From positions 1 to 64,000 of the forward strand of contig JANXDB010000020.1 in NCBI GenBank assembly GCA_025060015.1: a DNA stretch of 64,000 bases, read 5' to 3'. The notes beneath the pieces are model-generated. The model was not told where the DNA came from and did no database searches. It saw only the letters and a list, made by a program, of their open reading frames with translations. Of this stretch, positions 5,015 through 43,999 are shown one piece after another. Each line of letters begins with the position of its first letter. Within the stretch, counting starts at the first letter, position 1. The position numbers and the translations under genes were made by a program. The stretch is from Caldimicrobium sp. Its GTDB lineage: Bacteria; Desulfobacterota; Thermodesulfobacteria; Thermodesulfobacteriales; Thermodesulfobacteriaceae.

Positions 5015-6360
5015 TGTGAGTTCAAAAAATCCCTCTGGCCAGTTGATTCCAGCACCGAGAGCCAAAATCTGCTTTGGAGATTAAGCTGTTTCCTCTTTTT
5101 AACAGCCTCTTTCAGAGGGATGTGAACAAACTGATCGTTTAAATAGCTGATCATAAGTCCTGTTTTGCCTGCCATTCCGGCATGAACAGCATATTGCCCT
5201 AAGAAACCGCAATACATCCTATCTTCCACATTTGCAGGCACACTTCTTATGATGTAACTAGGATCAATGTATCTTATTATCACCTCTAAGTTTTTTTCTT
5301 TGAAATACTTCTCAATCCTTTCCTTTAGGTATCTTCCAATATCACCTAACTTGATATTTCCTGAGACATCATACTCTGGGGGATCCTTTCTTACGTATTT
5401 TTGTCCAGCTCCCTCTGCCACCACAATTACCGCATGTTTTCTTGCTAACAATCTCCTCTCAAGCTCAGCAAGGAATCCTTTAGGACCATCGAGGTCAAAG
5501 TCCATTTCTGGTACAAGACAAAAATTAACCTCCTTAGTTGCTAAGGTCGCTGCTGCAGCAATAAAGCCAGAGTGTCTCCCCATCAACTTCACCAGCCCAA
5601 TACCGTATGGCACGGCTATGGCCTCGGTGTGGGCACAGCGTATAGCCTCACAAGCAAGCTCAACTGCTGTATCGAAACCAAAGGTCTTTGATACAAGCCA
5701 AATGTCATTATCAATGGTCTTGGGGATAGCAACAACTGCTATTTTTAAACCTCGCCTGGTAATCTCATCCTTGATCTTGGTTGCAGCCCTGAAGGTTCCA
5801 TCTCCGCCAATCATGAAGAGAATTTGTATGTTCATTCTCTCCAGGGTATCTACTATCTCCTCGATCTCTTGATGCCCTCTGGATGTTCCTAAGAAAGTTC
5901 CACCCATACTATGGATATCCTTAACAACCTCAGGATTGAGTTCCACTACAGGGTGTCCGTAGTGAGCAATAAAACCTTGTAGTCCATAACGAAAACCAAT
6001 GATCTTGTTCACACCATATGAATAATAAAGAGTCATAACGATGCTTCTTATTACATCATTAATCCCTGGACAAAGGCCTCCACAGGTTACAATTGCCACC
6101 TTTGTTTTAGAGGGATCAAAGTAGATATAAGGCCTTGGTCCTGCAAGTTCAAGAGAAGGAGCTCCGATTCCTTTGCTCAATCTTTCACTAAGATAACTGT
6201 AATTAACTCTCAAGGTTACTCTGTTATTGTCAGTAACAAAACACTGGTGTGGAAGGTTTAGGGGACTTGGTATTTTAGCAGGACCTAAAACCTCTATTTC
6301 AGTTTCAATATCTTCAATTATCTCTTCTGTAAATTCCATGGGATCACAGATGTTACTCAT
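5011..6360 (-). CDS. 6-phosphofructokinase, long (plant/TP0108-like) type
   Basis: Phosphorylates fructose 6-phosphate in glycolysis. It carries GGLCPGINDVIR, GGDGTFRAATKI, PKTIDNDIWLV and MGRHSGFIAAAATLA. Gly in GGDGT argues for ATP rather than pyrophosphate as donor, whereas Lys in PKTIDND is the residue typical of PPi-type enzymes. This mixed signature is the one known in the plant-type and TP0108-type ATP-PFK group, whose ~450-residue length it also shares. The ATG at 6360 has AAGGAG upstream. It sits between hisD (23-nt gap) and ftsH (ATGA overlap). Donor specificity cannot be settled from sequence alone. Confidence 0.88.
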   Translation of the reverse strand: MSNICDPMEFTEEIIEDIETEIEVLGPAKIPSPLNLPHQCFVTDNNRVTLRVNYSYLSERLSKGIGAPSLELAGPRPYIYFDPSKTKVAIVTCGGLCPGINDVIRSIVMTLYYSYGVNKIIGFRYGLQGFIAHYGHPVVELNPEVVKDIHSMGGTFLGTSRGHQEIEEIVDTLERMNIQILFMIGGDGTFRAATKIKDEITRRGLKIAVVAIPKTIDNDIWLVSKTFGFDTAVELACEAIRCAHTEAIAVPYGIGLVKLMGRHSGFIAAAATLATKEVNFCLVPEMDFDLDGPKGFLAELERRLLARKHAVIVVAEGAGQKYVRKDPPEYDVSGNIKLGDIGRYLKERIEKYFKEKNLEVIIRYIDPSYIIRSVPANVEDRMYCGFLGQYAVHAGMAGKTGLMISYLNDQFVHIPLKEAVKKRKQLNLQSRFWLSVLESTGQRDFLNSQ

Positions 6361-6383
6361 ACAGGCACTCCTTTCAAGAAACT

Positions 6384-7700
6384 CTAAGGGTTTTTCATTT
6401 TTCTTAATCTAACCGCCACAGCTTCCGCATGGGAGGGAAGATTTTCGTTCAATGCCATTGTTATGACTCTTGGTCCATCTTGCTTTAGTGCCTGAGGTGA
6501 ATATTTGATAAAATTTATCCTCTTTAAAAATCTATCCACTGAGAGGCCACTACTAAATCTTGCTAAGCCCATGGTAGGTAACACATGGTTTGGTCCTGCG
6601 ATGTAATCGCCCACTGCCTCAGGAGTATGGGCTCCCAAGAAAACTGCTCCAGCATTTTTTATACAAGCAAGATAGGCCTCGGGATTTGCCACCAGTAGTT
6701 CCAAATGTTCTGGTGCTATGGTGTTAGCTATTTTAAAGGCTTCATCGATGGTATTTACCTTAATTAAAGCACCTCTCTTTTGCAAAGCCTCCCTGGCAAT
6801 TTCACTTCTTAGCCCTCTACTTAGGGCATCCTTTAGTTTTGCCTTTACCTCTCTGATGAGCCTTCCTGAGGTAGTCAAAAGGATACTCATGCTTTGAGGA
6901 TCATGTTCTGCCTGAGCAAGGAGATCCCAGACTACAAAATCAGCATCTGCGTTATCATCGGCAACAATCACCACCTCACTTGGCCCAGCCAAAAGATCAA
7001 TCCCCACCTGGAAGGAGACTATCTTTTTTGCCAGAGTGACATATATGTTCCCTGGACCACAGATCACGTCAACCTTCGGAATATTCTCCGTTCCATGTGC
7101 CATGGCAAAGATACTCCAGGGACCACCAACCCTGTAGATCTCATCCACTCCGGTCTCCTTTGCTGCAACCAAAAGGGCAGGATGAAGAGACTTATCTCCC
7201 CTTGGTGGAGAACACATGATGACTCTCTTAACACCAGCAAGTTTTGCTGGAATAGCCGTCATTACCACAGTTGATATGAGAGGGGTCTCTCCCCCCTTCC
7301 CACCTGGAATGTAAAGCCCTGCAGAGTCAACGGGTTTTATCAACTGCCCAAGAAGACATCCATCATCAGTGCTTTCAAACCAACTCTGCGGCAAAATCCT
7401 GGCATGAAAGTTCCTAACCTTGGCCACCGCAAGTCTTATTGCCTCTAAAAGCCTCTCATCAATTTCTTTATAAGCCCTTTGGATTTCATCCTCTGAGATT
7501 CTGAATTCCTCTGGCTTGAGATCTACCTGATCAAATTTAGAGGTGAATTTGCACAGGGCAATATCACCCTCCCTCTGCACAGATCTGCCTATACTTCTTA
7601 CACTCCTTTCTAACCTTGATGGATAGGTCTCCAAACGGGAAGAAAGTGAAGCTAAAAACCTTTCCACTCTGGAACTAGGATATTTCAAGATCCTTATCAT
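6384..7700 (-). CDS. hisD: Histidinol dehydrogenase
   Basis: Catalyses the last two NAD-dependent oxidations of histidine biosynthesis, L-histidinol to L-histidine. Family segments seen include DSAGLYIPGGKGGETPLIS, DVICGPGNIYVTLAKK, AGPSEVVIVAD, QAEHDP and APEHLEL, with the zinc and base residues in place, and the C-terminal GPNHVLPT. The track begins at a TTG (7718) inside purL. The ATG at 7700 lies just after the purL stop and gives the normal N-terminus, so it is preferred (438 aa). No other his genes are nearby, so the location with purL, a purine gene, is a loose operon. Confidence 0.96.
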   Translation of the reverse strand: MIRILKYPSSRVERFLASLSSRLETYPSRLERSVRSIGRSVQREGDIALCKFTSKFDQVDLKPEEFRISEDEIQRAYKEIDERLLEAIRLAVAKVRNFHARILPQSWFESTDDGCLLGQLIKPVDSAGLYIPGGKGGETPLISTVVMTAIPAKLAGVKRVIMCSPPRGDKSLHPALLVAAKETGVDEIYRVGGPWSIFAMAHGTENIPKVDVICGPGNIYVTLAKKIVSFQVGIDLLAGPSEVVIVADDNADADFVVWDLLAQAEHDPQSMSILLTTSGRLIREVKAKLKDALSRGLRSEIAREALQKRGALIKVNTIDEAFKIANTIAPEHLELLVANPEAYLACIKNAGAVFLGAHTPEAVGDYIAGPNHVLPTMGLARFSSGLSVDRFLKRINFIKYSPQALKQDGPRVITMALNENLPSHAEAVAVRLRKMKNP

Positions 7701-13971: not shown

Positions 13972-14078
13972 TCCCAGTCTTCACACCTGAGTCCCCTAAG
14001 GCGTGACCTGCGGAACAGTGTAACAAAGCTATAATTTTTCCAGCTTGAAGCTGATTAGTCTCATTTACAGTCCTAAGC

Positions 14079-14570
14079 TCAATCAGCCTTAACCCCCTTA
14101 GCAGGAAGATCCTTGGCAATTATTTGATTGCTATACATTAAAGTTCCAAAAATATCGGGTTTTCTGATCATCTCCCTTATGCGCTCAGTTGAAAAAATTA
14201 TAGTTGTAGCAATAACAATTGCATATACACTTGCAATAGCAAACATAAAGGAAGTTTTTATCAGCAGTTGCGGCCAGTAAGTCTGATTAAAAAAGCCATC
14301 AAAAAAAATCCCAGTTTCTGGCCATTTTCCAGGGGATAACATAAAGGCAAGGATCCCCACAATGATGATCATAGTGGTCCAGGAACCTATGGCAAAAATC
14401 CAACCAAGTTTAAGATGGGTTTTCTGATCCACTTTTCCTAAGGTGTAGTAATATACAATTATTCCTACAACTTCTATAATAAAGAAAACCCACTCAGTTG
14501 CCCAACCCCAGACATAATTATGGATTAAATTTGTTATATTTGTTTTTATGCTTTTAGAAATTAAAAAAAA
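14079..14570 (-). pseudogene. Relic of a cytochrome bd-type (ubiquinol) oxidase subunit I
   Basis: The open frame has no start codon at its 5' end. From ~14530 it encodes [20 protein letters not shown], then [26 protein letters not shown] and [13 protein letters not shown] with several hydrophobic helices. This matches the middle of the CydA-like oxidase subunit I family found in many anaerobes. About 85 N-terminal residues and most of the C-terminal part are absent. The track shows only the GTG-initiated 117-aa part. Its truncated end lies ~100 nt from the IS right end, which suggests that IS activity or a related deletion broke it. Confidence 0.75.
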
Positions 14571-14641
14571 TTAAAAGAAATTTTTTTGAATGTTTCACAC
14601 TTAGGGCATTGAAAATAACTTAATGTCTTAAAACATCTTAT

Positions 14642-15806: not shown

Positions 15807-16127
15807 TTACACGCAACCTGTAGGTTTGGGGAGACCAGCCATTTTACATGCACCCTTTCCTGGTCCAGAGGGAAATAATTCGTAAATCTTTTTGAGGGGA
15901 TAACCTGTTACCTTGGAGAGAATTCTCACCATAGGGGCAACCCCATTCTTCTTGTAGTAATCCTGAAGAACGTTAATCACCTTCCAGTGCTCTTCAGTAA
16001 GCTCCTGTATCCCCTCTTGCTCTTTGACATACTCTACCCAATCCTGAGACCAAGCTTCTAAACCACCAGCTAAAAAGCCATCTTCATCCACTTCAAAAAC
16101 CTTTCCTTTGTACTCAACTGTAGGCAT
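15807..16127 (-). CDS. dsrC: DsrC, sulfite reductase-associated sulfur carrier (TusE family)
   Basis: DsrC is the trisulfide-forming substrate of dissimilatory sulfite reductase and passes the product to membrane DsrMKJOP. The 106-residue protein ends in GACKMAGLPKPTGCV. Both redox Cys of the mobile arm are present (10 residues between them, the second penultimate), as in true DsrC rather than TusE homologues with one Cys. AAGGAGGTG precedes the ATG. The ~118-nt upstream gap contains TTGACA on the minus strand (16209-16214) with a weakly placed TATAGG. It appears monocistronic, as dsrC usually is in sulfate reducers. Confidence 0.96.
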   Translation of the reverse strand: MPTVEYKGKVFEVDEDGFLAGGLEAWSQDWVEYVKEQEGIQELTEEHWKVINVLQDYYKKNGVAPMVRILSKVTGYPLKKIYELFPSGPGKGACKMAGLPKPTGCV

Positions 16128-16717: not shown

Positions 16718-17404
16718 CTATTTACTCTCTACTATAAATGGTTTCTCAACTCCTAACCGTTCTTTTGCTATAGGAATGGCCTTCTCAGCCTCTTCTCTAC
16801 TCCCAAATTTACCTAAATATACCTTGTATAATATCTTTCCCTCTTGAGTTACCTCTTTTAATTCCGCTGAGTATCCTAGCCCTTTAATTTTATTAACCAT
16901 TTGGTCTGCCTTATCTTTCTGAGAAAAGGCTCCTACTTGCAAGGAGAATTTGCCTGCTGGCTCCTCTTTTATTTTAGTTGCCAGTTGTGCCACTTCTTTC
17001 CTTTTATACTCCGGGGCCTCTTTCACTGGCTTAGATTCAACACTTTTCTTTGGCTTTTCTGCCAACGGAACCTCCTTCTTAATCCCTTCCTCCTTCATCA
17101 CCTCCTTTGTGGTATTATCAACCTTAGCTATGCTAGTCTCATTTTGCACCGCCTTTGTCTCATTGGTGATCTTTGCAGTTTCATTGGTAACATTAGTAAC
17201 ATTTGATGTTATTGCCGGAACATTGAGGGGTGGAATTTCAGGTTTTTTATCGAGAGCTACCTCCTCAGCTACTCTCTTTCCCCCTATCTTAGTTCCGATC
17301 CAAACACCTAAAATAAAAGTCCAAATGAGAATACAAAGACCAAAGAGAACCACAAAGATAAGGGCAACTCTACTTAATTCAAACTTAACCTTCTTTTCCT
17401 CCAT
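16718..17404 (-). CDS. Inner-membrane SPOR-domain protein
   Basis: Bitopic protein: a short cytoplasmic N-terminus, one membrane helix (ALIFVVLFGLCILIWTFILGVWIG), a long Lys/Glu/Thr/Asn-rich periplasmic linker, and a C-terminal SPOR domain from ~residue 150 (FSLQVGAFSQKDKADQMV ... LYKVYLGKFGSREEAEK). SPOR domains bind denuded septal peptidoglycan, so it is likely a cell-division or envelope protein like FtsN or DedD. The linker repeats NVTNVTNETAKITNET-type units, a low-complexity stretch. Confidence 0.85.
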   Translation of the reverse strand: MEEKKVKFELSRVALIFVVLFGLCILIWTFILGVWIGTKIGGKRVAEEVALDKKPEIPPLNVPAITSNVTNVTNETAKITNETKAVQNETSIAKVDNTTKEVMKEEGIKKEVPLAEKPKKSVESKPVKEAPEYKRKEVAQLATKIKEEPAGKFSLQVGAFSQKDKADQMVNKIKGLGYSAELKEVTQEGKILYKVYLGKFGSREEAEKAIPIAKERLGVEKPFIVESK

Positions 17405-17701: not shown

Positions 17702-17848
17702 CTAATCCTCTTCATCATCTTCTAACATACGATATTTGGGGGCCTCTGGGTCATCAAGTTGGCCACTTTTAACTGACCAAAGAAACCACAGCCAAGCCCC
17801 AATTCCAAGGGCCAAGGAAATGCCAATCAGAAAATACAAACTCCACAT
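17702..17848 (-). CDS. ccoS: cbb3-type cytochrome oxidase assembly protein CcoS
   Basis: A 48-residue protein missed by the ORF track. It has one N-terminal membrane helix (LYFLIGISLALGIGAWLWFLW) then SVKSGQLDDPEAPKYRML and an acidic tail. The WxVKSGQxDDxExPxxRxLxDD pattern is the hallmark of CcoS, which is needed for cofactor insertion into cbb3 oxidase. The ATG at 17848 is 4 nt after the ccoI stop. It is the last gene of the cluster. Confidence 0.92.
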   Translation of the reverse strand: MWSLYFLIGISLALGIGAWLWFLWSVKSGQLDDPEAPKYRMLEDDEED

Positions 17849-17852
17849 GGCT

Positions 17853-20255
17853 TTACTTTGTAAGCCTCAAAGAATTAGCCACAACAAAAAGAGAACTCAA
17901 GGCCATCAGTATAGCTGAAATGACCGGATGTATTTTGCCCATCACCGCAAGGGGTATGGCTATGCTATTGTAGGAAAAGGCCCAAAAGAGATTCTCTTTG
18001 GCGATCTTTAAGGCTTTTCTTGAAAGCATCAAGAACCGTGGTAAACTCCTCAGGTCCTTTTTGATAAAGACACCTTGAGCGGATTCCATGGCAAGCTCGA
18101 CTCCACTTGATAGTGCTAAACTGGCATAACTCACTGCTAAGGCAGGGGCATCATTAATGCCATCACCAATCATAAGGACCTTTTCCTCTTTCTCCTGCCA
18201 TTTCTTGATAAGTTCGGCCTTTTCCATAGGAGTGGCCTTAGAGATAAAATAATCAATGTGGAGAAAATTGGCAACCCTTTTAACAGATCTTTCCTCGTCT
18301 CCGCTAAGAAGCCAAATCTCCATGTCAAAATCCTTAAGAGATCTAACTACTTCCCGTGCCTCCTCTCTAATAGTGTCATCTACTATAAACAAAGCCAAAA
18401 CCTTTTTCTCATCACCGAGAAAAACAGGAGTAAACCCCTTTTCTGTTGCCTCCTGGAGATCCTTTAGGGCTTGATCAGGCATCTCCAGATTTTTCTCATC
18501 CATAAACTTCTGATTTCCCAAATAATAAATTTTTCCCTCCACATATCCCTCAATGCCCCTACCTGGATAATTCCTGAATTGAGTTAACTTCGGTACAGAG
18601 GGCCCTTTGACAGCCTTCAGGAAAGCTTTCGCTATGGGATGGGAAGATCCGCTTTCCAAACCACAAGCTACCTTGAGGGCACTATCCTCTTCCACGGAGT
18701 AGGTTTTTACCTCCACTATCCTAGGCTCGCCTTTGGTTAAGGTGCCGGTTTTATCAAAGGCGATTTTGTTTAGATAAGGAACTCTCTCAAAAAGGGTAGA
18801 GTCCTTAATTAAAATTCCCAGTTCGTAGGACCTCTGAGTTGCTATCAAGTAAACAAGAGGTAGAGCTAGCCCAAGGGCACAGGGACAGGCAATAACTAAC
18901 ACTGAGACTGCTCTTAAAAGAGCCACCTTGGTCTCCACATGAAAGTTCCAATATAAAAAAGTCACCAAGGCAATGATTAATATCCCTGGAACAAAGACCT
19001 TTATCACTCTGTCTGCCAAAGTCTGAAGTCTTGGTTTTTCCTCTAAAGCCGTTGTAACTGCATGCAAAATCTTCGAAAGCAAAGTCTCCTTGACAGCCTT
19101 AACCTTGATTATCAGTCTTCCGTTAATGTTGAGGGATCCGGCATAAACATAGTCTTCCCTATCTTTATATACAGGCATGGGCTCCCCTGTAAACAGGGAC
19201 TCTTGAACCTCGGAACATCCCTCCACCACTACACCATCCACAGGTATCTTTTCTCCTGGCCTTACTACAACTAAGTCTCCTTCTTTCAAAGTCTCCAAAA
19301 GCACAAGAACTTCTCCAGTTTCGGAGACTTTGGTAGCATAACGAGGTTGATAACTTAGTAAAAGCCTGAGGAGAGAACTTGCTTTGAATCTCATTTTCTT
19401 CTCCAAATACCTTCCCAAAAGTATGAAGGTAATAATCATGGCGGAGGTATCAAAATAGACCTCCTTTTCAAGGAATATAGCACCTACACTGTAAAGATAG
19501 GCGGAAAAGGATCCCAAGATGATTAGCACATCCATGGATAGTTCTCTTAAACGCAGACTCATAAAGAAGTTTTTCCAAAAGGGTTGAGCTGAGTAGAACA
19601 TAACAGGGGTACTCAAACCCCAGGCAAGAAATTCGAAAAACCTTCTCAACTCCGGATCTATACCCTGGAAATAACCCGCATAAAGTGAGACCGTATAGAG
19701 CATAAGCTGCATGGAAAAAAAGCCTGCGGTTCCGAAGCGGATAAGTAAATCCTTGGCTTCAGCCTCAAGGACCTTCTCAGGATCAGAAGTCAAACCGGGT
19801 AAGGGAAGATATCCCAGGGAGGTTATGGCACTTAGGATCTCTTTTAGAGAAATCTCCTGAGGATTAAAACTTATGGTAGCCCTATGGGTGGCAAAGTTAA
19901 TGTTAACCCTTTTTATACCCTTTTTCTTTCTTAAGAATTTCTCAATAAGCCATACACAGGCAGCACATCTTAACCCAGATATGCCGAGTTTTAATTCTGC
20001 CTCCTCCTCGCTTAACCTTTTTACCGAGTCCTCAAAGAGAGTCTCTTCAACTTCCTTAAACTCAGGCTGACCAGGAATCCAACCTTTTCTCCTTTCATAG
20101 AAGGCCTCAAGATCAGCTTCTCTTATGGCTAACCTTATGGCATAGCAGCCTGCGCAACAAAAGGGCTCTAATTTTCCACCAATCTCATACCAGAGCACTT
20201 CCTCTTTCTTGAGAGGGGCTAGACAATGAACGCAACTTAGAAATGGCTCTGACAT
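17853..20255 (-). CDS. ccoI: Copper-translocating P-type ATPase CcoI/FixI
   Basis: P1B-type ATPase that exports copper for the CcoN CuB site. Order: an N-terminal Cys-rich metal-binding segment (CVHC ... CCAGC), an HMA domain with LRCAACVWLIEKFLRK, eight predicted membrane helices, actuator TGE (LFTGEPMPV), CPCALGLALP ion channel motif, phosphorylation DKTGTLTKGEP and the hinge GDGINDAPALA. At 800 aa it has the usual length. It immediately follows the SafE-like gene (stop and start adjacent) and precedes ccoS. Confidence 0.95.
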   Translation of the reverse strand: MSEPFLSCVHCLAPLKKEEVLWYEIGGKLEPFCCAGCYAIRLAIREADLEAFYERRKGWIPGQPEFKEVEETLFEDSVKRLSEEEAELKLGISGLRCAACVWLIEKFLRKKKGIKRVNINFATHRATISFNPQEISLKEILSAITSLGYLPLPGLTSDPEKVLEAEAKDLLIRFGTAGFFSMQLMLYTVSLYAGYFQGIDPELRRFFEFLAWGLSTPVMFYSAQPFWKNFFMSLRLRELSMDVLIILGSFSAYLYSVGAIFLEKEVYFDTSAMIITFILLGRYLEKKMRFKASSLLRLLLSYQPRYATKVSETGEVLVLLETLKEGDLVVVRPGEKIPVDGVVVEGCSEVQESLFTGEPMPVYKDREDYVYAGSLNINGRLIIKVKAVKETLLSKILHAVTTALEEKPRLQTLADRVIKVFVPGILIIALVTFLYWNFHVETKVALLRAVSVLVIACPCALGLALPLVYLIATQRSYELGILIKDSTLFERVPYLNKIAFDKTGTLTKGEPRIVEVKTYSVEEDSALKVACGLESGSSHPIAKAFLKAVKGPSVPKLTQFRNYPGRGIEGYVEGKIYYLGNQKFMDEKNLEMPDQALKDLQEATEKGFTPVFLGDEKKVLALFIVDDTIREEAREVVRSLKDFDMEIWLLSGDEERSVKRVANFLHIDYFISKATPMEKAELIKKWQEKEEKVLMIGDGINDAPALAVSYASLALSSGVELAMESAQGVFIKKDLRSLPRFLMLSRKALKIAKENLFWAFSYNSIAIPLAVMGKIHPVISAILMALSSLFVVANSLRLTK

Positions 20256-20951
20256 CTATCTAATAAACTCTGACCAGATAAAATAGGCACCTGCTATAAT
20301 CAGAAGAATACCAGCAAGATAGTTGAATTTTTCTCTGAGAAAGGTTTTTCCCTTAAAGGTTGCCTCACTAACCAGAAAAAGAGAAGGGATGGTTGCTAAA
20401 CCAAAGATAAGTAGAGCTAAAAATCCCTTAGCAAAGGCAACCAAGGGTATTTTCTCCTTAACACCAAGGGCTGATACTGCAATAAATCCTGCATAGGAAA
20501 GCCCACAGGGAAGAAGACCATTTAAAATGCCAGCTGGAAATAGGTAGCTTAGGCCACCACTTTTGATTAAATTTGCCATCCTCACACTTAGAGCCTCTAC
20601 TTTGAAAAGCAATCTTATAAATCTCGGTTTCCTGCGAAGGATCAAAAGAAGACCCATTACGATCAAAAGAAGGCTAACCAGAAGCACTAAAATCCTCTGG
20701 AAGGGCTCTAAATATTCCGCACCGGCAAGAAAGGATCCGAGAAAAGCCATAAAACCGCCAACAAAGGCATAACTCAAGGCCCTCCCCAAATGATAAAAGA
20801 CATAAACTCTGACTCTATCCCAGAGGGAAAGCCCCTCCATCACCGAGGATAAAAAAAGCATAAGGGGGCCGCACATTCCGATACAATGGCCAAAGCCCCC
20901 CATAAATCCAGAAACAGCAAGGATTAAGAAGATGGGCTTTTCAACTTCCAT
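20256..20951 (-). CDS. SafE/TauE-like membrane protein of cbb3 clusters (COG2836 type)
   Basis: A 231-residue protein with about six membrane helices. It starts with GFMGGFGHCIGMCGPLML, a Cys/His/Met-rich first helix, and has GILNGLLPCGLSYAGF in the middle; the duplicated half pattern resembles DsbD-type transporters. Homologues are regularly found between ccoG/H and ccoI and are thought to help copper supply to the oxidase. The sulfite exporter name of the wider family is not evidence for sulfite transport here. Confidence 0.8.
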   Translation of the reverse strand: MEVEKPIFLILAVSGFMGGFGHCIGMCGPLMLFLSSVMEGLSLWDRVRVYVFYHLGRALSYAFVGGFMAFLGSFLAGAEYLEPFQRILVLLVSLLLIVMGLLLILRRKPRFIRLLFKVEALSVRMANLIKSGGLSYLFPAGILNGLLPCGLSYAGFIAVSALGVKEKIPLVAFAKGFLALLIFGLATIPSLFLVSEATFKGKTFLREKFNYLAGILLIIAGAYFIWSEFIR

Positions 20952-21368
20952 CTATCGGTTTTTGATATGAAAAAGTATTTTGGCAAGGGTTTTCTTAGTG
21001 GATAAATCTATAACCTCTGCTTGCCACAGGGTTTTTTTGCATCGGGGAAGGATGATCTTGCCCTCATATTGCGCTGCTAAGATCTTTTTTACTTTGGCCT
21101 TGTTTTCTCCCATGTACATCTCCGGCATGGTAAAATCAACTAAAAGCTCTTCAGCTTGAAGAGGCGGATCAATCTGGATCTCTATTGTTAACTCCTGCAT
21201 TGCCCTTACTGGTTTGGGTTTCAAGTCAAATATAATCTTATGCTTGCCAAAAAACACCTCACAGGCACTTTTCTGAAGATCACACTCGGTCTCTTTTGCT
21301 ACAAGGGCCCTCTGAGAGAAACCCACAAAGAGCAGTAAGACCAAAGCTAAACTTAGGAAAGAGCGCAT
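20952..21368 (-). CDS. Periplasmic protein, possibly FixH/YtkA-like
   Basis: A 138-residue protein with a signal peptide (LALVLLLFVGFSQRALVA). The mature part contains two Cys early on (CDLQKSACEVFF) and beta segments LTIEIQIDPPLQAEELLVDFTMPEMYMGEN, whose Met-rich loop could bind copper. The fold pattern resembles YtkA/FixH-type immunoglobulin-like domains. Its position between nosL-like and SafE-like genes suggests a role in copper handling for the oxidase. Specific function unknown. Confidence 0.55.
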   Translation of the reverse strand: MRSFLSLALVLLLFVGFSQRALVAKETECDLQKSACEVFFGKHKIIFDLKPKPVRAMQELTIEIQIDPPLQAEELLVDFTMPEMYMGENKAKVKKILAAQYEGKIILPRCKKTLWQAEVIDLSTKKTLAKILFHIKNR

Positions 21369-21881
21369 TTAGTTTCCTCCCTTCTGCATCCTTTTCATCT
21401 TTCTTCTCTCACGGATCATCTTGGTGTCTTCATACATATCCTCATAAGCTGCCTTAATTGCCTCTTCAAAGTTTCCAAGCTTACCTCCATTTCTCTGAAT
21501 GAAAGCCAAGGCATCCTCCTTCTTCTCAAAGGCCCATTTGGCACGCTTAGTCATCACACCCTTTATAGATCCACCTATCACCCAATAGGCCCTTTCAGCA
21601 TCTATAAGTTTTTTCGTGTTGTAATCAGCAACCAAGATCTTCACCGGTGCTTTATCTATGTTGATAGCCATATCCAAAGCAGCACAGTGAAGACTACAAA
21701 CTCCCTCCTCATGGCCATCATCATAAACCACAAGCATCCTGCTAAAATTGAAAGCCTTTCGGTCCATCTGGCAGTACTTACAGGTTGGATGCTTCACAAT
21801 ATCATCATCTACTGCCTGTAATAGGGCAAAACCTCCAAACAATAATAACACAAAAAGAATCAAACTAACCACTCGCTTCAT
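21369..21881 (-). CDS. NosL-like copper-binding periplasmic protein
   Basis: After an N-terminal signal segment the protein has TCKYCQMDRKAFNFSRMLVVYDDG and GVCSLHCAAL, the Cys/Met/His pattern of NosL-family copper chaperones. The C-terminus is long, charged and helical, ending RRKMKRMQKGGN. No nitrous-oxide reductase is nearby, so in this setting it probably serves cbb3 assembly. RBS GGAGGTGAG precedes the ATG. A good -10 TATAAT lies on the minus strand (21934-21939) without a clear -35, so the copper genes may also form a second transcription unit. Confidence 0.8.
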   Translation of the reverse strand: MKRVVSLILFVLLLFGGFALLQAVDDDIVKHPTCKYCQMDRKAFNFSRMLVVYDDGHEEGVCSLHCAALDMAINIDKAPVKILVADYNTKKLIDAERAYWVIGGSIKGVMTKRAKWAFEKKEDALAFIQRNGGKLGNFEEAIKAAYEDMYEDTKMIRERRKMKRMQKGGN

Positions 21882-22030
21882 AACTCACCTCCTACTCGAA
21901 AATTTTTGAAGTGTTTGAGAAGGCTCTATCTCAATTATAACAATTTTTTGAACATAACACTATTTAGTAAAGATGTCTTAAAAGTTAAAATAAATATCTC
22001 TAAAGCTCCCTGGGAGTTCCATTTCAAAGA

Positions 22031-22477
22031 CTATCTGTAATCCACCTCAATTCGCTTGAACAGAGGAAAGACTTCACCTTCGTAGGGTAAAAAAAAGATA
22101 AGATTCCACTTTCCCGAAAAGGGAATCTTTATCTTGGTAAGAAAATTAGAGCCCTCTTTAGGTGTGGCTTCATATTCCAGATCATATTCATTGTTTGCTA
22201 TCCAGCTCACTCTTACCTTAATTCTGTTCACTCTATACTGATTCATGGCATCTTCATTAATTTTGAAGATAAGGTCGTTTTCACCCACCTTAAAGGTTGG
22301 GGAAGACAAAGTGAGATTATAGAACTTCTCTGCCTTTTTGTATTTATCATAGGAAATTCCAAGCTCGTAGGATTTTTCGTAGATCTTGCCATCAAAGTTC
22401 TTTTTACCAATGTATATGGAGAAAGCAATGGCAGAAAGACCAATAAAAATAACCAAATACACCAACCCTCTAATCAT
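22031..22477 (-). CDS. ccoH: CcoH/FixH-like cbb3 assembly protein
   Basis: 148 residues with one N-terminal membrane helix (YLVIFIGLSAIAFSIYIG) followed by KSYELGISYDKYKKAEKF and a periplasmic beta domain, the arrangement of FixH/CcoH, which contacts CcoP and CcoN during assembly. Its start overlaps the ccoG stop (4 nt). A 149-nt gap follows before the nosL-like gene. Confidence 0.85.
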   Translation of the reverse strand: MIRGLVYLVIFIGLSAIAFSIYIGKKNFDGKIYEKSYELGISYDKYKKAEKFYNLTLSSPTFKVGENDLIFKINEDAMNQYRVNRIKVRVSWIANNEYDLEYEATPKEGSNFLTKIKIPFSGKWNLIFFLPYEGEVFPLFKRIEVDYR

Positions 22478-23637
22478 AAAACCTCAAAATTCTCACTTTT
22501 TACCAGTTTCTTTTGATTAAGATAGATTTTTATTTCAAATTTCTTTATATCCTTAGGCACAAAGACCAGCAGACGAACCTTTTTCTTCTCCTCTGAAGCT
22601 AAGACAATCTCCTCTGGGACAACCTTTAGAAAAGGCACAGTGCTTATTTTTATTTTCTGAGGGGACTTATTTTTGTTTTCCAATGAAAGCCAAAAGGCTC
22701 CAATAGTGTTTTCTCTAGCTTCCTTTGGGGTTGAAAAACCGAGATCTCTGCCTAAATGAATTTCCACTGGGTTTATCTTAAAGGAGTAGAAAATAGTTCC
22801 ACCAAGTGAGAGGAAAAAAAGAAGGGTAGTAATCCAGATGGCTGGCCTAAAAAATTCCTTTAGGGTAAGACCCTTTTTTGATCCCCATAGGTATCTAATT
22901 AAGCCTGGCTTTTCCTTTTTGAGAAAAACCCTATCACAGGCTGAAAGACACTCCGCACAGGCAATACAGGCGATACCTGAGCCCTCTCTTATGTCAATCT
23001 TTACCGGACAGGCCCTTACACAGGCTTTACAGTTGATACACTCCTCCTTTCTCTCAGGATCAAGGGCGATTAACAGCGTCTTATCGTCAAAAAGCACAGT
23101 CTGAGCTCGGGCATAGGGACAGATCTTGGCACAGAAAGTTCGCCTCCAATAGAGGAAGTTAAAAAAAGTGGGCACAAAGATCAATATGAAAAAGGCAGTT
23201 GTCAGCCTGCCAGGTGGTTCTCCTCTGAAAAGTTTTTCCCAAAATTCGTAGGGAGAAATAAAATACCATATGAGGGTTAAACTGACCCATAGGCTCAGCA
23301 AAAAGATAACTGAGTAAAAAAGAACTTTTCTCTTTTGTAACTTCTCCGTAAAATCACATAGGACTGTTTGAGGACAGCACCAACCACACCAAATCCTACC
23401 AAAGGCAAGGGTTATCAGAAGAAATAGAAAAGTAAAAGCCAGCGTGAGAAGAAGCAGGAGAAAAAAATCCTCAAGATAGAGAGTCTTCCCCAAAAAATAC
23501 AGCTTTAGGGTGGGCACATCAAAGCGAAGGGCACTTTCACCGGACACTTTGATCCAGGGCAAAATAAAAAAGGTGGCGGCAAGGAAAAACTTCACACCCC
23601 ACCGCCACCCCTGAAGACTAAGAACCCTTCTCTTCAT
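22474..23637 (-). CDS. ccoG: CcoG (RdxA/FixG) 4Fe-4S membrane protein
   Basis: Cupric reductase-like assembly factor of cbb3 oxidase. Several membrane helices carry WCGWCCPQTV and the CPYARAQ loop; a ferredoxin-type domain follows with CINCKACVRACP and CIACAECLSAC, then a C-terminal periplasmic Ig-like domain. The track starts at a TTG (23673); the ATG at 23637 gives MKRRVLSLQGWRW and is preferred (387 aa). It overlaps the ccoQ-like gene by 20 nt. Confidence 0.93.
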   Translation of the reverse strand: MKRRVLSLQGWRWGVKFFLAATFFILPWIKVSGESALRFDVPTLKLYFLGKTLYLEDFFLLLLLTLAFTFLFLLITLAFGRIWCGWCCPQTVLCDFTEKLQKRKVLFYSVIFLLSLWVSLTLIWYFISPYEFWEKLFRGEPPGRLTTAFFILIFVPTFFNFLYWRRTFCAKICPYARAQTVLFDDKTLLIALDPERKEECINCKACVRACPVKIDIREGSGIACIACAECLSACDRVFLKKEKPGLIRYLWGSKKGLTLKEFFRPAIWITTLLFFLSLGGTIFYSFKINPVEIHLGRDLGFSTPKEARENTIGAFWLSLENKNKSPQKIKISTVPFLKVVPEEIVLASEEKKKVRLLVFVPKDIKKFEIKIYLNQKKLVKSENFEVL

Positions 23638-23770
23638 CGTCGTCTTGGAGCATGCGGTATTTTGGTTCCTCAATCTTTTCCTTTCTCTTCCTGTTAAAGT
23701 AATAGGCTATGATCATGGCAAAGGCAATCACTAAAATAGATCCATATAATAGATATTCCGTTGGACTCAT
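23618..23770 (-). CDS. ccoQ: CcoQ-like small subunit with a CcoS-like tail
   Basis: A 50-residue protein not in the track: one membrane helix (LLYGSILVIAFAMIIAYYF), a basic patch RKRKEK, then EEPKYRMLQDDDEE. Position between ccoP and ccoG and topology fit CcoQ/FixQ. However, the tail PKYRMLxDDxEE is almost the same as the tail of CcoS from this cluster (PKYRMLEDDEED), so it may be a CcoS paralogue acting at the CcoQ position. The ATG overlaps the stop of the 29-aa gene (ATGA), and its 3' end overlaps ccoG. Confidence 0.8.
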   Translation of the reverse strand: MSPTEYLLYGSILVIAFAMIIAYYFNRKRKEKIEEPKYRMLQDDDEEKGS

Positions 23771-23856
23771 TTGCCCCTCATCTTAAAGTATAGTAAAAGT
23801 AGCGCAAGGGCTGCTAGACTTGTAAAACCTATAGTGGCTATGATGGTTATATCCAT
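23767..23856 (-). CDS. 29-aa single-helix membrane peptide between ccoP and ccoQ
   Basis: A tiny frame with an excellent ribosome site (AAGGAGG, 6-7 nt before the ATG) encodes one hydrophobic helix, TIIATIGFTSLAALALLLLYF, with a basic end KMRGK. It ends in an ATGA overlap with the ccoQ-like gene and starts 11 nt after ccoP. This tight coupling indicates it is translated as part of the oxidase operon. It may be a small cbb3 subunit analogous to CcoM or a second CcoQ; no homologue can be named from sequence alone. Confidence 0.7.
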   Translation of the reverse strand: MDITIIATIGFTSLAALALLLLYFKMRGK

Positions 23857-23867
23857 GGTAATCCTCC

Positions 23868-24395
23868 TTATTTTTGTAAAGTTCGTATATAGGCAACCAT
23901 GGACCATATGGCATTTTTATCAAACTGAGCCTCATAGGGAGGCATTCCTTTGTCAGTTCCCTTGGCTATGATTTTGTAAAGCTCACCATCAGAGATATCT
24001 TTTTCTGCGCCAAGCCATACTCTATCTTGTAAACCCGGTCCAATACCACCCTCTCCGTTTGCCCCATGACAAGCGGCACAGTTCTTTGCATAGAGATCTT
24101 TTCCCATAGCTATGGCTTTGGAATCTCCTGCCAGAGGATTTTTATCCTCGATAACTGCTGGTTCCGCTTTAGCCTTAAGACGTTGTGCTATAACTGGGTC
24201 CTTTGCTAATTCTTCCTGTAGTTCCTTTTCCTGGGACCAACCGGTAAAAGCTGGAGTATAGGCATAGATATAGTAAATGCCCCAGATGATCAGACCCCAG
24301 AAAAGAATTAGCCAACCCTTGGGAATTGGTCTGCTGCAACACTCCTCTGTTTCAAACTCTCTTAAATCATCGGCCTCTTCATATATATGCTTCAT
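23868..24395 (-). CDS. ccoP: cbb3 oxidase subunit CcoP, mono-heme form
   Basis: 175 residues: an N-terminal cytoplasmic segment with a CC pair (EECCSRPIPKGW), one membrane helix (LILFWGLIIWGIYYIYAY), and one class I cytochrome c domain with NCAACHGANGEGGIGPGL and a distal Met in KGMPPY. Classical CcoP has two CxxCH motifs and ~300 residues; only one is present here, so the electron path lacks one heme. It lies 22 nt after ccoO. Confidence 0.93.
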   Translation of the reverse strand: MKHIYEEADDLREFETEECCSRPIPKGWLILFWGLIIWGIYYIYAYTPAFTGWSQEKELQEELAKDPVIAQRLKAKAEPAVIEDKNPLAGDSKAIAMGKDLYAKNCAACHGANGEGGIGPGLQDRVWLGAEKDISDGELYKIIAKGTDKGMPPYEAQFDKNAIWSMVAYIRTLQK

Positions 24396-24417
24396 ATTTT
24401 CACCTCCCCAAAGTTTT

Positions 24418-25002
24418 TTACTTTTTGACTGCCGTTCCTAAAACCTGCATATAAGCCACCAACGCATCCATCTCTGTCTTGCCTTTCAGAGCTTCTATTT
24501 CCTCCTTTGTATAGGGAAATCCCAAAGCCTTCATGTGGGCTTCGATCTGCTGTGGATCTAACTTTCTTTCTTTCAAAAAGGCATATTTAGGCATATTACT
24601 TTGAGGAAAGAAGGCCTGAGGATTTTCAAAGTGCTTATAGTGCCATTCATCGGGATATTTTCCTCCAATCCTTGCTAGATCAGGACCAGTTCTTTTAGAA
24701 CCCCAGAGGAAGGGACGATCATATGCAAACTCACCGGCCTTAGAATATTCACCATAGCGTAGTACCTCAGTTTTTAATGGTCTCACAGTCTGAGTGTGAC
24801 AGTAGAAACAACCCTCTCTTTGATATACATCCCTGCCAGCCAGTTGCAAGGCCGTAAAAGGCTTTAATCCCTCAAGTTTGGGATGCATTTCCGGTCTAAA
24901 CATGGGATAAAGCATGGTAATAATGGTTCCTGCAAGGACTGCTAGAGTAGCCAAAACGGCCAGAACTACAGGATTTCTCTCTATGACATGATGGAGACTC
25001 AT
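24418..25002 (-). CDS. ccoO: cbb3 oxidase subunit CcoO (mono-heme cytochrome c)
   Basis: 194 residues with one N-terminal membrane anchor and a cytochrome c domain: GCFYCHTQTVRPL for covalent heme, GPDLARIGGKY, and SNMPKY with the axial Met. It passes electrons from CcoP to CcoN. It starts 14 nt after ccoN. Confidence 0.95.
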   Translation of the reverse strand: MSLHHVIERNPVVLAVLATLAVLAGTIITMLYPMFRPEMHPKLEGLKPFTALQLAGRDVYQREGCFYCHTQTVRPLKTEVLRYGEYSKAGEFAYDRPFLWGSKRTGPDLARIGGKYPDEWHYKHFENPQAFFPQSNMPKYAFLKERKLDPQQIEAHMKALGFPYTKEEIEALKGKTEMDALVAYMQVLGTAVKK

Positions 25003-25016
25003 ACTCTCACCTCCCC

Positions 25017-26417
25017 TTAAGCACTTTTTTCTTTGGCCTTTTTGACAGTCATGTAGATATTATAGAGAAAGAAAAGCATACCTATGGTAAAGATCACCCC
25101 AGCTATGGTTCTCATTTGCCAATAGGGATAGTTCTTGGCGATGATTTCAATCATGGTGTATTTCAATGAGCCATCGGGATTGACGGCTTTTTGTAGAGCA
25201 CCCTGTTGTATTCCAGTAATCCACATGGTAATGGAGAAGAGGAGCTGTCCCACCAGCACAAACCAGAAGTGCAAGTTTGCAATCTTAACGCTGTATATCT
25301 CAGTCCTGTAAATCTTGGGAATCATGTAATAGATACAGGCAACCACTGTAAGGGTAACCCATCCCATGGTCCCCATATGAACATGCCCTATAACCCAATC
25401 GGTGTAATGAATGAGAGAGCTTACCACTCTCAAACTCTGAGTTGGACCCTGCACTGTTTGAAGGCCATAAAAGGTAATAGCTAATAGGAAAAACTTTGTA
25501 AGATAGTTGTTCTTTGCCTTTTCCCAGTCTTGTCCCACTGTGTAATAACCGTTAATCACTGAACCCCAGGAAGGTGCAATTAAAAACATGGTAAAGACAA
25601 TTCCCAGGGTTTGAATCCAGTCAGGAAGGGGTGTATAGACGAGATGATGAGCACCGGTCCAGAGATAGGCAAAGACTAGAGACCAAAAAGATATAATGGA
25701 AAGCCTGTGGCTGTAAATGGGTAATCCCGTAGATTTGGGAAGAAAATAATAAAACATGGCCAGAATTGGAGTTGTGAAGACAAATCCCACAGCGTTGTGG
25801 CCATACCACCATTCCACATTGGCGCTGTTAACTCCTGCAAAGAGGTGATAACTTTTAAGCCACCCAGCTGGGATGGCAAGATTATTTATGATGTAAAGTA
25901 TAGCAACAGCGATGACCGTAGCCACGATGAACCAAAGGGAGACATACATCTGAGGCTCTCTTCTAGTAAAGATGGTGCCAAAGATATTTATAGCAAACAT
26001 AACCCAAAGGATTACCACCCCGATGTCCAAGGGCCATTCCAATTCTGCATACTCAAGAGACTGGGTTGCTCCGGCAAGAAGACTCAGGGCTGCAAGGGCA
26101 ATGGCAATGTTGAAAATGTAAAGCTGTGCCCTAGCAAGCCTTGGAAAAAGAAGAGGCCTCTTGCAGAGCCTCATGGTGATGTAGTAGGTGATTCCAAAAA
26201 TCGCACCCACTCCCAAACCAAAGGCTAATCCGTTGGTATGAACAGCTCTCAGACGACCAAAGGTAAAATAGGGTGCCACGTTGGTCTCTGGAAGCCACAT
26301 CTGAATGGAAATCCAAAGACCAATAAGAATTCCCACTACACCCCAAAAAAGAGAAGAATAAATAAAGCCTAAAACAGTTCGGTAATCGTAACTGTAATCA
26401 AAACGTTCCTCTGCCAT
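25017..26417 (-). CDS. ccoN: cbb3 oxidase catalytic subunit CcoN
   Basis: 466-residue heme-copper oxidase subunit I (type C), ~12 helices, reducing O2 to water with proton pumping and high affinity. His ligands are seen in RAVHTNGLAFG (low-spin heme), WWYGHNAVGF with the cross-link-type Tyr downstream, GAHHLVYTPLPDW (CuB) and DWVIGHVHMGTMGWV (high-spin and low-spin hemes). It is the first gene of the cluster, with RBS GGGGGTGG and a good promoter. High-affinity respiration in a DsrC-bearing organism suggests oxygen scavenging or microaerobic use. Confidence 0.96.
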   Translation of the reverse strand: MAEERFDYSYDYRTVLGFIYSSLFWGVVGILIGLWISIQMWLPETNVAPYFTFGRLRAVHTNGLAFGLGVGAIFGITYYITMRLCKRPLLFPRLARAQLYIFNIAIALAALSLLAGATQSLEYAELEWPLDIGVVILWVMFAINIFGTIFTRREPQMYVSLWFIVATVIAVAILYIINNLAIPAGWLKSYHLFAGVNSANVEWWYGHNAVGFVFTTPILAMFYYFLPKSTGLPIYSHRLSIISFWSLVFAYLWTGAHHLVYTPLPDWIQTLGIVFTMFLIAPSWGSVINGYYTVGQDWEKAKNNYLTKFFLLAITFYGLQTVQGPTQSLRVVSSLIHYTDWVIGHVHMGTMGWVTLTVVACIYYMIPKIYRTEIYSVKIANLHFWFVLVGQLLFSITMWITGIQQGALQKAVNPDGSLKYTMIEIIAKNYPYWQMRTIAGVIFTIGMLFFLYNIYMTVKKAKEKSA

Positions 26418-26447: not shown

Positions 26448-26461
26448 TCAAATAAATCTTA
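26448..26461 (-). promoter_or_regulatory. Candidate redox-regulator box upstream of ccoN
   Basis: The minus-strand sequence TAAGATTTATTTGA matches 11/14 to the perfect palindrome TAAGATTAATCTTA found before fprA and overlaps the -10 region. The following ~30 nt up to the start codon are also nearly the same as in the dfx leader (AAAAATA, TTTTAGGGGGTG). Inferred to be an operator; the binding protein is unknown. Confidence 0.45.
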
Positions 26462-26484
26462 TATTTAAAATCTCAACTTGTCAA
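26456..26484 (-). promoter_or_regulatory. Promoter of the cbb3 cluster
   Basis: On the minus strand a perfect TTGACA (plus 26479-26484) is followed after 17 nt by TAAGAT (plus 26456-26461). The -10 is contained in the 14-bp box shared with dfx and fprA. Downstream, before the RBS, there is an imperfect palindrome CCTAAAAATAATTTTAGG (26428-26445). Confidence 0.6.
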
Positions 26485-26696: not shown

Positions 26697-28349
26697 CTAC
26701 ATCCTGTTTGGACTGCTGACACCTAAAAGGTTCAGCCCATTGTTTATGACAATCCTACAGCCCTCTGACAAGGCAAGTCGTGCTAAGCTTAAGTCTTTAT
26801 CCTCACCTAGAATCCTAAACTTGTTATAGTATTCGTGAAAGATTCCTGCAAGATCCAAAAGAAAATAGGTGATCTTGTAGGGAGCAAACTGGGTAGCTGC
26901 AAGCTCAACATGATCTGAAAACTCTGCTATTCTCTTTAGAAGTGCTAGCTCTTCTTTTTCTCTTAAGAGGGTCAAATCTGCCCTATGGATCTCCTCAAGA
27001 TCATAGCCAACCGCCTCTGCCTTCTCCTTTAGAGAACAAATCCTGGCATGGGCGTATTGCACGTAATATACTGGATTTTCTGCAGAATGTTTCTTTGCCA
27101 GTTCTACATCAAAATCAAGAGGTGAGTCCTGACTGCGAGAGAGAAAGATGAACCTCACCGCATCAACTCCAACCTCTCTAACTAGCTCTTTTAACTCCAC
27201 GTATTCTGCCTTTCGTGTGGACATGCTCTTTAGCTCGCCCCCCTCAAGGAGATTGACCATCTGTATAAGAAGAATAACAAGCTTTTCTGAAGGGATATCC
27301 ATTGCCTTTAAAACTCCCTTAAGCCTTGCCACATAGCCATGATGGTCTGCTCCCCAAAGATTAATGGCAAGATCATAGCCCCTTTTAAAAAACTTTTCAT
27401 AGTGATAGGCAATATCACTGGCAAAATAGGTCCAATCATTGCTGCTTTTTTTGATTACTCGATCCTTTTCATCGCCAAATAGAGAGGACTTAAACCACAA
27501 AGCACCCTCTGATTCATATACAAGTCCCCTTTTCTTTAGCTCCTCGATAACCTCTTCCACTAAACCACTCTCGTAGAGCCCCTTTTCTGAGTACCATTGA
27601 TCAAACTCCACTCGAAAGTTCTTCAAATCATTCTTTATATCCTCTAAAATGATCTTTATGGCTAATTCTCTACATAGGGCAATAGCCTCTCTTTCCCCCT
27701 TCTTTAAAAGATCCTCAAAGAGTCTTAGGGCAACCTTGGCGATTTCGTATATGTAATCCCCTTGATAATAGTCCTCTGGAAAGGATATCCTTTCGCCTAC
27801 TAACTCCTTTGCTCTAAGGTAAACCGAGGCTCCAAGGATATCCATCTGGGTTCCCCTGTCGTTGATATAGTATTCTTTATTAACCTCATAGCCTGCAAAT
27901 TTAAAAATCCTTGCCAAGGCATCGCCATAGGCAGCTCCTCTGCCATGTCCAATATGTAGAGGGCCTGTGGGATTTGCTGAAACAAACTCAATTAAAACCT
28001 TCTTTCCACCTCCGATATCCACCTTTCCAAAGCTATCTCCGTCCTTTAAGGCCTCTTTTAGCGTCTCGAACAAAAGGGAATTTCTCAGCCAAAAGTTGAT
28101 GAAGCCCGGACCAGCTATCTCTACCCTTTCAAAGAGTGCCCTCTCTTCTTTTAATTGATTAGAGAGATCTTCAGCGATCTTCCGTGGATTCTCCTTAAGT
28201 ACACCCTGAAGAACTAAGGCAACGTTGGTTGAAAGGTCTCCAAAATCCTCCCTCTTTGGTTTCTCCACCTCAAAGTTAATTTTATCTATTTCTGTGTAGG
28301 ATTTTTGAATACTTCTATCAATGATCTCCCTTATCCTTCTCCTTATCAC
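26697..28349 (-). CDS. argS: Arginyl-tRNA synthetase
   Basis: Class I synthetase charging tRNA-Arg. It has the N-terminal additional domain, the HIGH-type motif GPLHIGHGRGAAYGD, WGADHHGYVARLKG, KSMSTRKAEYV in the KMSKS position, and the helical anticodon-binding DALR domain at the C-terminus. The 550-aa length is normal. Start GTG at 28349 lies inside the preceding small Cys protein gene (32-nt overlap) with GAGAGAAGAAAG upstream. Last gene of the grpE-dnaK strand run. Confidence 0.95.
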   Translation of the reverse strand: MIRRRIREIIDRSIQKSYTEIDKINFEVEKPKREDFGDLSTNVALVLQGVLKENPRKIAEDLSNQLKEERALFERVEIAGPGFINFWLRNSLLFETLKEALKDGDSFGKVDIGGGKKVLIEFVSANPTGPLHIGHGRGAAYGDALARIFKFAGYEVNKEYYINDRGTQMDILGASVYLRAKELVGERISFPEDYYQGDYIYEIAKVALRLFEDLLKKGEREAIALCRELAIKIILEDIKNDLKNFRVEFDQWYSEKGLYESGLVEEVIEELKKRGLVYESEGALWFKSSLFGDEKDRVIKKSSNDWTYFASDIAYHYEKFFKRGYDLAINLWGADHHGYVARLKGVLKAMDIPSEKLVILLIQMVNLLEGGELKSMSTRKAEYVELKELVREVGVDAVRFIFLSRSQDSPLDFDVELAKKHSAENPVYYVQYAHARICSLKEKAEAVGYDLEEIHRADLTLLREKEELALLKRIAEFSDHVELAATQFAPYKITYFLLDLAGIFHEYYNKFRILGEDKDLSLARLALSEGCRIVINNGLNLLGVSSPNRM

Positions 28350-42071: not shown

Positions 42072-42791
42072 TCAACTCTGATAAAACTTTTTAGCCTCTT
42101 GAAAATCCCAAGGTCTTATTTTGATTCCATCAAAGATGATTAGGGATGTTCTCTTTTCCATTAAAATCTCAAAAGCTTTCTCAATGATCGGTCTGTGTTG
42201 ACGCATGTCCAGGCACCTTTGAAATGGCCTTAAGCTCCATAGTGTGAGCAGAAGAACCCCATCATCCTGGGAATTAAGATGAAAAATCAGATATTCTTGG
42301 GCTCTAACTGATACTAGTTCTTCAGTATATCTCTGAGCTAATCTTCCTACACCCCAAATAATTCCTCGCTGGGCAGGTGGAAAGTCTAGATAGTTTCCCT
42401 CAGGCCAGATGTAAGAGACGTATATCTGAAGATATTCCCTTCTCAGCTGTTCACTGTGATATAGAGTCTCTCCAAAGGCTTCTCCCACACCCCAAGCCAT
42501 CCCTCCTGATTCTTCGTTGAGCATCCACATTAGTCTTCTCATCAAAATTCTGGCTTTTTCTATTTCCTCTTTGGCAATCTTTGCAGAAGTGATACCAAAG
42601 GCATAGATGGCCTTCCAGCGCACTCTTTCGTCAAGATGTAAAAAGGCGGAAATAAAATGACTAATGATTTTAGTAAGAGGATAGGGCTCGATAGCTTCCT
42701 CGAGCCCCTCAAGCTCTGTATTTTCAAGAATATGCCAAATTTTTTTCTTAAGATAGATCTCCTCTTTAGGCAGAACAGAGCTCCTTAACAC
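42072..42791 (-). CDS. HEAT-repeat protein of the DVU0298 type
   Basis: 239 residues of helical repeats (for example FLHLDERVRWKAIYAFGIT, AQRGIIWGVGRLAQRY, DDGVLLLTLWSLRPF). The pattern matches the DVU0298 family described in sulfate reducers, function unknown. The start is GTG at 42791, inside the end of fprA (26-nt overlap), so it is translationally coupled to the flavodiiron gene and is probably linked to oxygen or redox response. Confidence 0.7.
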   Translation of the reverse strand: MLRSSVLPKEEIYLKKKIWHILENTELEGLEEAIEPYPLTKIISHFISAFLHLDERVRWKAIYAFGITSAKIAKEEIEKARILMRRLMWMLNEESGGMAWGVGEAFGETLYHSEQLRREYLQIYVSYIWPEGNYLDFPPAQRGIIWGVGRLAQRYTEELVSVRAQEYLIFHLNSQDDGVLLLTLWSLRPFQRCLDMRQHRPIIEKAFEILMEKRTSLIIFDGIKIRPWDFQEAKKFYQS

Positions 42792-43965: not shown

Positions 43966-43985
43966 CGTCTAACCCCCTCCTACAC

Positions 43986-43999
43986 TAAGATTAATCTTA
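43986..43999 (-). promoter_or_regulatory. 14-bp perfect palindrome upstream of fprA
   Basis: TAAGATTAATCTTA is its own reverse complement. It lies 20 nt before the fprA start codon and contains the stop codon of the DsrE-like gene. Related sequences occur before dfx (12/14) and ccoN (11/14). Inferred operator of a redox-responsive regulator. Confidence 0.5.

Follow-up and report, generated by a model that had tools for sequence, protein, structure and literature searches.

A full gene cluster for a cbb3-type cytochrome c oxidase fills positions 17702-26417 of the minus strand in the stretch of Caldimicrobium sp. DNA analysed here (64,000 nucleotides, contig JANXDB010000020.1 of assembly GCA_025060015.1; the window below). 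We consider it probable (roughly 0.78) that the cluster was gained once, from a Thermodesulfovibrionia-like Nitrospirota donor, by the common ancestor of this genome (G000) and of Caldimicrobium sp. SKYB6 (G013), and that it now stands in place of bd-type oxidases. The cluster runs from the ccoN start at 26417 to the ccoS end at 17702 and comprises, in this order, ccoN, ccoO, ccoP, ccoQ, ccoG, ccoH, the genes of NosL, YtkA-like and DsbD_2 proteins, ccoI and ccoS. The host, a member of the order Thermodesulfobacteriales, is represented by a 1.6 Mb genome (99% complete) in 67 contigs, with the window on a 65,953-base contig (C37). SKYB6, whose cluster is locus L002, includes contig JANXCE010000014.1 (47,944 bases).

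The foreign origin of the cluster is carried by its distribution and by the CcoN phylogeny. The window genome and SKYB6 are the only two of the 41 genomes of the order with a COX1 match above the family cut-off. In a tree of 109 CcoN sequences and in a careful tree of 43, the two Caldimicrobium proteins (93% identical to each other) join that of an uncultured bacterium (L003, 86%) and then those of the Nitrospirota loci L004 and L010, with a support of 99/98. The preliminary description of this DNA had proposed such a phylogeny to tell transfer from descent within a typical aerobic lineage, and the outcome is transfer. The Nitrospirota-type clusters L003-L010, which include those of Thermodesulfovibrionia, resemble the window in CcoN (80-86% identical), in CcoO (73-80%) and in their gene order N-O-P-Q-G-H-YtkA-DsbD_2-I, which is the same as in the window apart from NosL. 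They differ in lacking NosL, in having CcoO and a cytochrome c domain in one fused protein, and in encoding the FixP_N helix by a small gene of its own. Vertical inheritance within Desulfobacterota with many losses could be read from the patchy occurrence of CcoN, with matches at E 1e-40 in 50 of 395 genomes of the phylum. We regard it as highly improbable, since placing all Desulfobacterota CcoN in a single clade costs 205.6 log units and is rejected by the approximately unbiased (AU) test (p-AU 2.6e-87), no match exceeds the family cut-off in 39 of the order's 41 genomes, and the site occupied by the cluster is empty in all six congeners.

This site lies between argS (26697-28349, minus strand) and a gene encoding a SPOR-domain protein (16718-17404, minus strand). 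In all six congeners (G012-G017), argS is followed by the SPOR gene after about 16-30 bases, although the contig of G017 ends inside the latter. The wider order dnaK, pdxA, asmA, rluD, argS, SPOR is kept as well and, where the contig continues, is followed by the genes of an acetyltransferase, dsrC, comEA and a HAD protein. The window genome is the only one in which the pair is parted, and it is precisely the space from the argS stop to the SPOR gene that the cluster fills. At both junctions no repeats, transposase genes or remains of mobile elements were found, only chance matches of 7-17 bases. A binning or assembly artefact, as might be suspected in a genome of 67 contigs, is scarcely credible: within one contig the cluster has native genes as neighbours on either side, the G+C content of the cluster is host-like (0.421 vs 0.41), and the independent SKYB6 assembly contains the same cluster among the native genes metK and ahcY. 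The third-position G+C content is host-like too, and the transfer was therefore either not recent or came from a donor of similar composition.

Among the six congeners, only SKYB6 has the cluster, and it has it elsewhere, directly before metK. The gene order, NosL and the partition of CcoO and CcoP are the same as in the window. The different sites might be taken to indicate two separate acquisitions, which we consider unlikely. The two genomes are sisters both in a DsrAB tree rooted on G001 (support 100/99) and in a tree of eight neighbour genes (3,487 columns, 100/100). Both clusters contain NosL and the rare partition, the CcoN proteins are 93% identical, and the assembly genes diverge like core genes (60-67% vs 54-72%). 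Because the clusters share these derived features, a single acquisition followed by a later move is favoured, and it is also the simpler course. In SKYB6, the cluster stands beside two pairs of a TauE/SafE-type permease gene and a partner gene in opposite orientation, and these pairs flank genes for a histidine kinase, for response regulators and for a large PPDK-like protein (L002, 21-9786).

The gain of cbb3 coincides on the same branch with the loss of the oxidases found in the relatives. Canonical CydA (580-599 bits) is encoded in G012, G014, G016 and G017 and was not found in the window genome or in SKYB6, both of which are draft metagenome assemblies of 99% completeness. In G016 and G012, cydAB follows a block with a radical SAM gene and the genes of a nine-haem and a two-haem cytochrome; in the window genome, SKYB6 and G014 the block is present without adjoining cydAB, and G014 has its cydAB copy elsewhere. 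The arrangement, in which genes for cytochromes with nine haems (429 aa) and with two haems stand by the radical SAM gene (L175, 8455-10161), is conserved in the genus. G016 and G014 also have intact copies of a second, CydA-like gene, whose product is fused to a cytochrome c domain. Relative to these copies, the gene lacks the same 53 bases in the window genome and in SKYB6, and its reading frame is thereby broken ahead of the cytochrome part. The eroded remnant in the window (13981-14583, minus strand) still gives a weak CydA match and has DNA blocks 91-95% identical to SKYB6; the gene has decayed further in the window genome than in SKYB6. The gain of cbb3, the absence of canonical bd and the inactivated CydA-like gene thus occur together on one branch, and cbb3 was apparently taken in exchange for an oxidase that the relatives keep. 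The absence of bd is associated with cbb3 among 30 good genomes (Fisher p 0.023), a value that comes from one lineage and from observations which are not independent. The CydAB oxidases of G012, G014, G016 and G017 are likewise membrane O2 reductases and presumably do the same job, but unlike cbb3 they take quinol directly, contain no copper and do not pump protons. A fusion of CydA-like and cytochrome c parts (L163, 5997-8524; 438 aa), accompanied by a membrane partner of 399 aa without a Pfam match, is widespread in the order; it is perhaps a cytochrome-c-linked relative of the bd oxidases.

The subunits that bring electrons into the enzyme are built differently from those of the donor-type clusters. 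In 93 of the 106 surveyed loci CcoO is fused to a cytochrome c domain, and in 89 of these a small gene of its own encodes the FixP_N helix. In the window, ccoO (24418-25002, minus strand, 194 aa) encodes an unfused mono-haem subunit II with one CxxCH motif (FixO 247.8 bits; above the cut-off of NCBIfam PRK14487). The FixP_N helix is joined to a Cytochrome_CBB3 domain (both Pfam) in a one-haem CcoP of 175 aa (23868-24395, minus strand), which again has one CxxCH motif. The parts of CcoP can be traced to the donor-type arrangement, as the helix part is identical at 38 of 63 positions to the separate helix gene of L003, and the cytochrome part at 58 of 100 positions to the end of its fused CcoO-c. 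The resulting partition is common to the window genome and SKYB6. A CcoO-c fusion and separate helix of the donor type were re-partitioned into CcoO and a one-haem CcoP on the branch leading to these two genomes. This form was also considered as unique to Caldimicrobium, which was rejected: it occurs in G354 and is usual in a distant canonical cbb3 branch. The G354 locus (L135, 106-2344) is an unrelated Desulfobacterota cbb3 cluster with the same partition of CcoO and helix-cytochrome, and the rearrangement therefore arose at least twice. By turning a fused CcoO-c into CcoO and a one-haem CcoP, this branch provides a natural experiment in the building of cbb3 electron-entry modules.

The catalytic subunit I, CcoN (25017-26417, minus strand, 466 aa; Pfam COX1 347.8 bits), aligns end to end with that of the Pseudomonas stutzeri cbb3 oxidase (3MK7/5DJQ), with 200 identical residues in 457 columns (44%). 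It keeps H60, H207, Y251, H257, H258, H345 and H347, residues that in the 3MK7 structure bind haem b, haem b3 or CuB or, in the case of the tyrosine, form the cross-link. CcoN belongs to the COX1 superfamily with all metal-ligand histidines and the cross-link tyrosine of a C-family subunit I kept, and it shares with the P. stutzeri enzyme the fold family, the residues that coordinate the two haems and CuB, and the His-Tyr pair. The two enzymes differ in CcoP, which has two haems in P. stutzeri and one in the window. Judged from its sequence, the cluster should encode a complete C-family (cbb3) cytochrome c oxidase, with haem content, O2 reduction and proton pumping as predicted properties, and high-affinity O2 reduction is likely to be the work of the enzyme. 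C-family haem-copper oxidases can also reduce NO, and the NosL protein bears a name from N2O reductase assembly. That the complex is mainly a nitric oxide reductase is nevertheless very unlikely, given the full oxidase assembly set, a subunit I that is CcoN and not NorB, and the conserved CuB ligands; no search aimed at NosZ or NorB was made.

Several observations weigh against the reading given above. The closest sampled CcoN is only 86% identical (L003, phylum unstated), and the true donor is outside the sample. The bd oxidase is also missing in G027, G028 and G031, relatives without cbb3; the exchange is therefore a single event on a single branch and could be a coincidence. The class assignment meets two difficulties. 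CcoP has one haem motif where the usual CcoP has two; NCBIfam includes a mono-haem version, the fused PRK14486. CcoN scores 514.6 bits and falls below the cut-off of NCBIfam TIGR00780 (ccoN, 583.15), and the same holds for 42 of the 50 genomes of the phylum that match CcoN; this cut-off is a curation threshold and no property of the enzyme.

All genes named for the cluster in the preliminary description (N, O, P, Q-like, G, H, I and S with NosL-like and SafE-like genes, on one strand) were recovered with Pfam and NCBIfam at exactly the same coordinates; the only gene left unnamed there was that of the 138-aa protein discussed below. The assembly genes ccoG, ccoH, ccoI and ccoS are all present. 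The small membrane protein encoded at 23618-23770 (minus strand, 50 aa) scores 24.9 bits with FixQ against a cut-off of 29, so that the wording "Q-like" was right; the position of the gene matches that in SKYB6 and in most relatives. The polyferredoxin assembly factor CcoG (22474-23637, minus strand) contains Fer4_18 and Fer4_5 and matches TIGR02745 below its cut-off (E 3e-64). Its open reading frame begins at a TTG at 23673, and the ATG at 23637 was taken as the start from the ccoG start of SKYB6. CcoH (FixH, 33.6 bits) is encoded at 22031-22477 and the 48-aa maturation protein CcoS (FixS 66.0 bits, cut-off 23.1) at 17702-17848, both on the minus strand. A possible promoter of the cluster, TTGACA-17-TAAGAT (26456-26484, minus strand), is located 39 bases before the ccoN start and agrees with the consensus at 10 of 12 positions; a scan of the region found promoter-like sites to be no commoner than expected by chance.

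CcoI, a P1B-type copper ATPase, exports Cu(I). The enzyme of the window (17853-20255, minus strand) contains E1-E2_ATPase, HMA and ATPase-cat_bd domains and matches the copper ATPase family TIGR01511 above its cut-off. Between ccoH and ccoI lie the genes of three further proteins, all on the minus strand. The first (21369-21881) belongs to the NosL family and is a probable Cu(I) chaperone, with PF05573 over the cut-off (48.0 bits, cut-off 24), a match to a NosL structure in the PDB (E 5e-5) and a CKYCQM motif, from which copper binding is predicted; a search against PADLOC gave no match. NosL occurs in two of the 41 genomes of the order, again the window genome and SKYB6 only. In L003, two small genes for one-haem cytochromes c (6313-7010) are found where Caldimicrobium has NosL. 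The second protein (20952-21368, 138 aa) is a YtkA-like periplasmic protein with a probable role in copper handling, as indicated by its homologues, its fold and its conserved Met and Cys residues. It has no Pfam YtkA match itself, but four of its 14 homologues match YtkA PF13115. The AlphaFold2 model (pLDDT 90) is closest in the PDB to the Helicobacter pylori copper protein CrdA (TM 0.51/0.63), and the conserved columns include C29, C36, M81, M84, M86 and C110. The third protein (20256-20951) is a DsbD_2/SafE-like membrane protein (DsbD_2 114.7 bits). CcoI may deliver copper to the oxidase with NosL and the YtkA-like protein, and copper probably reaches CuB by such a periplasmic relay. In Bacillus subtilis, proteins with a YtkA domain help to load oxidases with copper (PMC13344008), and NosL is known as a Cu(I) protein for the CuZ site of N2O reductase (PMC7558416). 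The position of NosL beside cbb3, in an order whose other genomes all lack it, points to copper delivery outside N2O reductase.

The route by which electrons would reach the oxidase can be proposed from the genome. The preliminary description had named a quinol:cytochrome c link and c-type cytochromes as things to look for, and both are there: a Rieske protein (128 aa) is paired with a cytochrome b (276 aa), and a one-haem cytochrome c of 115 aa is encoded too. Rieske proteins were found in 30 of the 41 genomes of the order, and the quinol link is therefore older than the oxidase. The small cytochrome c was considered as a cbb3-specific partner and rejected as such, since it is also present in G012, G016 and G017 and, like the quinol link, predates the oxidase. 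Most likely, electrons would pass from menaquinol through the native Rieske/cytochrome b pair and the small cytochrome c to CcoP, CcoO and CcoN and finally to O2. CcoN would contain low-spin haem b and, at the site of haem b3 and CuB, would convert O2 to water at high affinity. We infer that the enzyme is made, receives electrons in this way and pumps protons. A further membrane protein of the window (52677-53549) combines a cytochrome-b-like DUF4405 part with a long C-terminal part in which there are repeat-like stretches, and a di-haem MauG/peroxidase-like protein (L183, 1423-2484; MbnH/MauG families, below cut-off) is encoded in the same genome.

The host bears the dsr genes of a sulfate- or sulfite-reducing lineage, and the sulfate reduction or sulfur disproportionation suggested in the preliminary description is a possible way of life for this species. 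The dsrC gene reported in the preliminary description is confirmed (15807-16127, minus strand; TIGR03342 114.2 bits, cut-off 53.5), and DsrA (557.2 bits) and DsrB (521.4 bits) are encoded elsewhere in the genome. Each of the 41 genomes searched in the order has genes of the dsrA type, and in 37 the match exceeds the curated cut-off. Sulfur disproportionation has been described for C. thiodismutans, a cultured species of the genus (PMC5459899). Sulfate reducers have mainly bd oxidases, which are seen as a means of detoxification (PMC10591310), and some have haem-copper oxidases (PMC11451228). Since the sulfate reducer Desulfofaba has both bd-I and cbb3 (PMC10116758), cbb3 in a Dsr-bearing bacterium was already known. 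The likeness lies in the occurrence of cbb3 in Dsr-bearing Desulfobacterota; O2 reduction was measured in Desulfofaba. The difference is that Desulfofaba keeps bd beside cbb3, whereas canonical bd is gone from the window genome and SKYB6. No mention of Caldimicrobium together with cbb3 was found in the literature searched. What is new is a cross-phylum transfer with loss of bd and re-partitioned subunits, in a lineage not known to have cbb3.

The preliminary description proposed oxygen protection or microaerobic energy gain as the role of the oxidase, which is supported in part; the exchange of oxidases, the insertion site and the altered partition of CcoO and CcoP had been missed. There is about an even chance that the oxidase serves oxygen protection only and yields little or no energy. 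Membrane oxidases of sulfate reducers are usually read as defence (PMC10591310, PMC11451228), and the window itself encodes, about 16 kb from the cluster (42766-44993), an O2/superoxide defence group composed of a NorV-type flavodiiron protein, a 116-aa protein without NCBIfam match and a desulfoferrodoxin. The flavodiiron protein and desulfoferrodoxin fit an O2-exposed life. On the other hand, the cluster stands in place of a bd oxidase, which suffices for scavenging without a copper assembly set, and a quinol-cytochrome c link is present. In addition, cbb3 is a proton-pumping enzyme. That bd disappeared where a cytochrome c oxidase was gained speaks for a role beyond scavenging. The oxidase might mainly keep O2 low at the oxic-anoxic border, with a possible gain of energy.

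In a further step, the acquired proton-pumping cbb3, with its rebuilt one-haem CcoP and the NosL recruited to it, would have taken over from the native quinol oxidases of the bd type. It would let one branch grow by genuine microaerobic respiration, within a group whose members are described as thermophilic, anaerobic sulfur bacteria. We put this forward tentatively, as the less probable outcome. The genus offers a clean comparison, with the window genome and SKYB6 on one side and the four bd-bearing relatives on the other, for the question of whether a change of oxidase turns defence against O2 into respiration.

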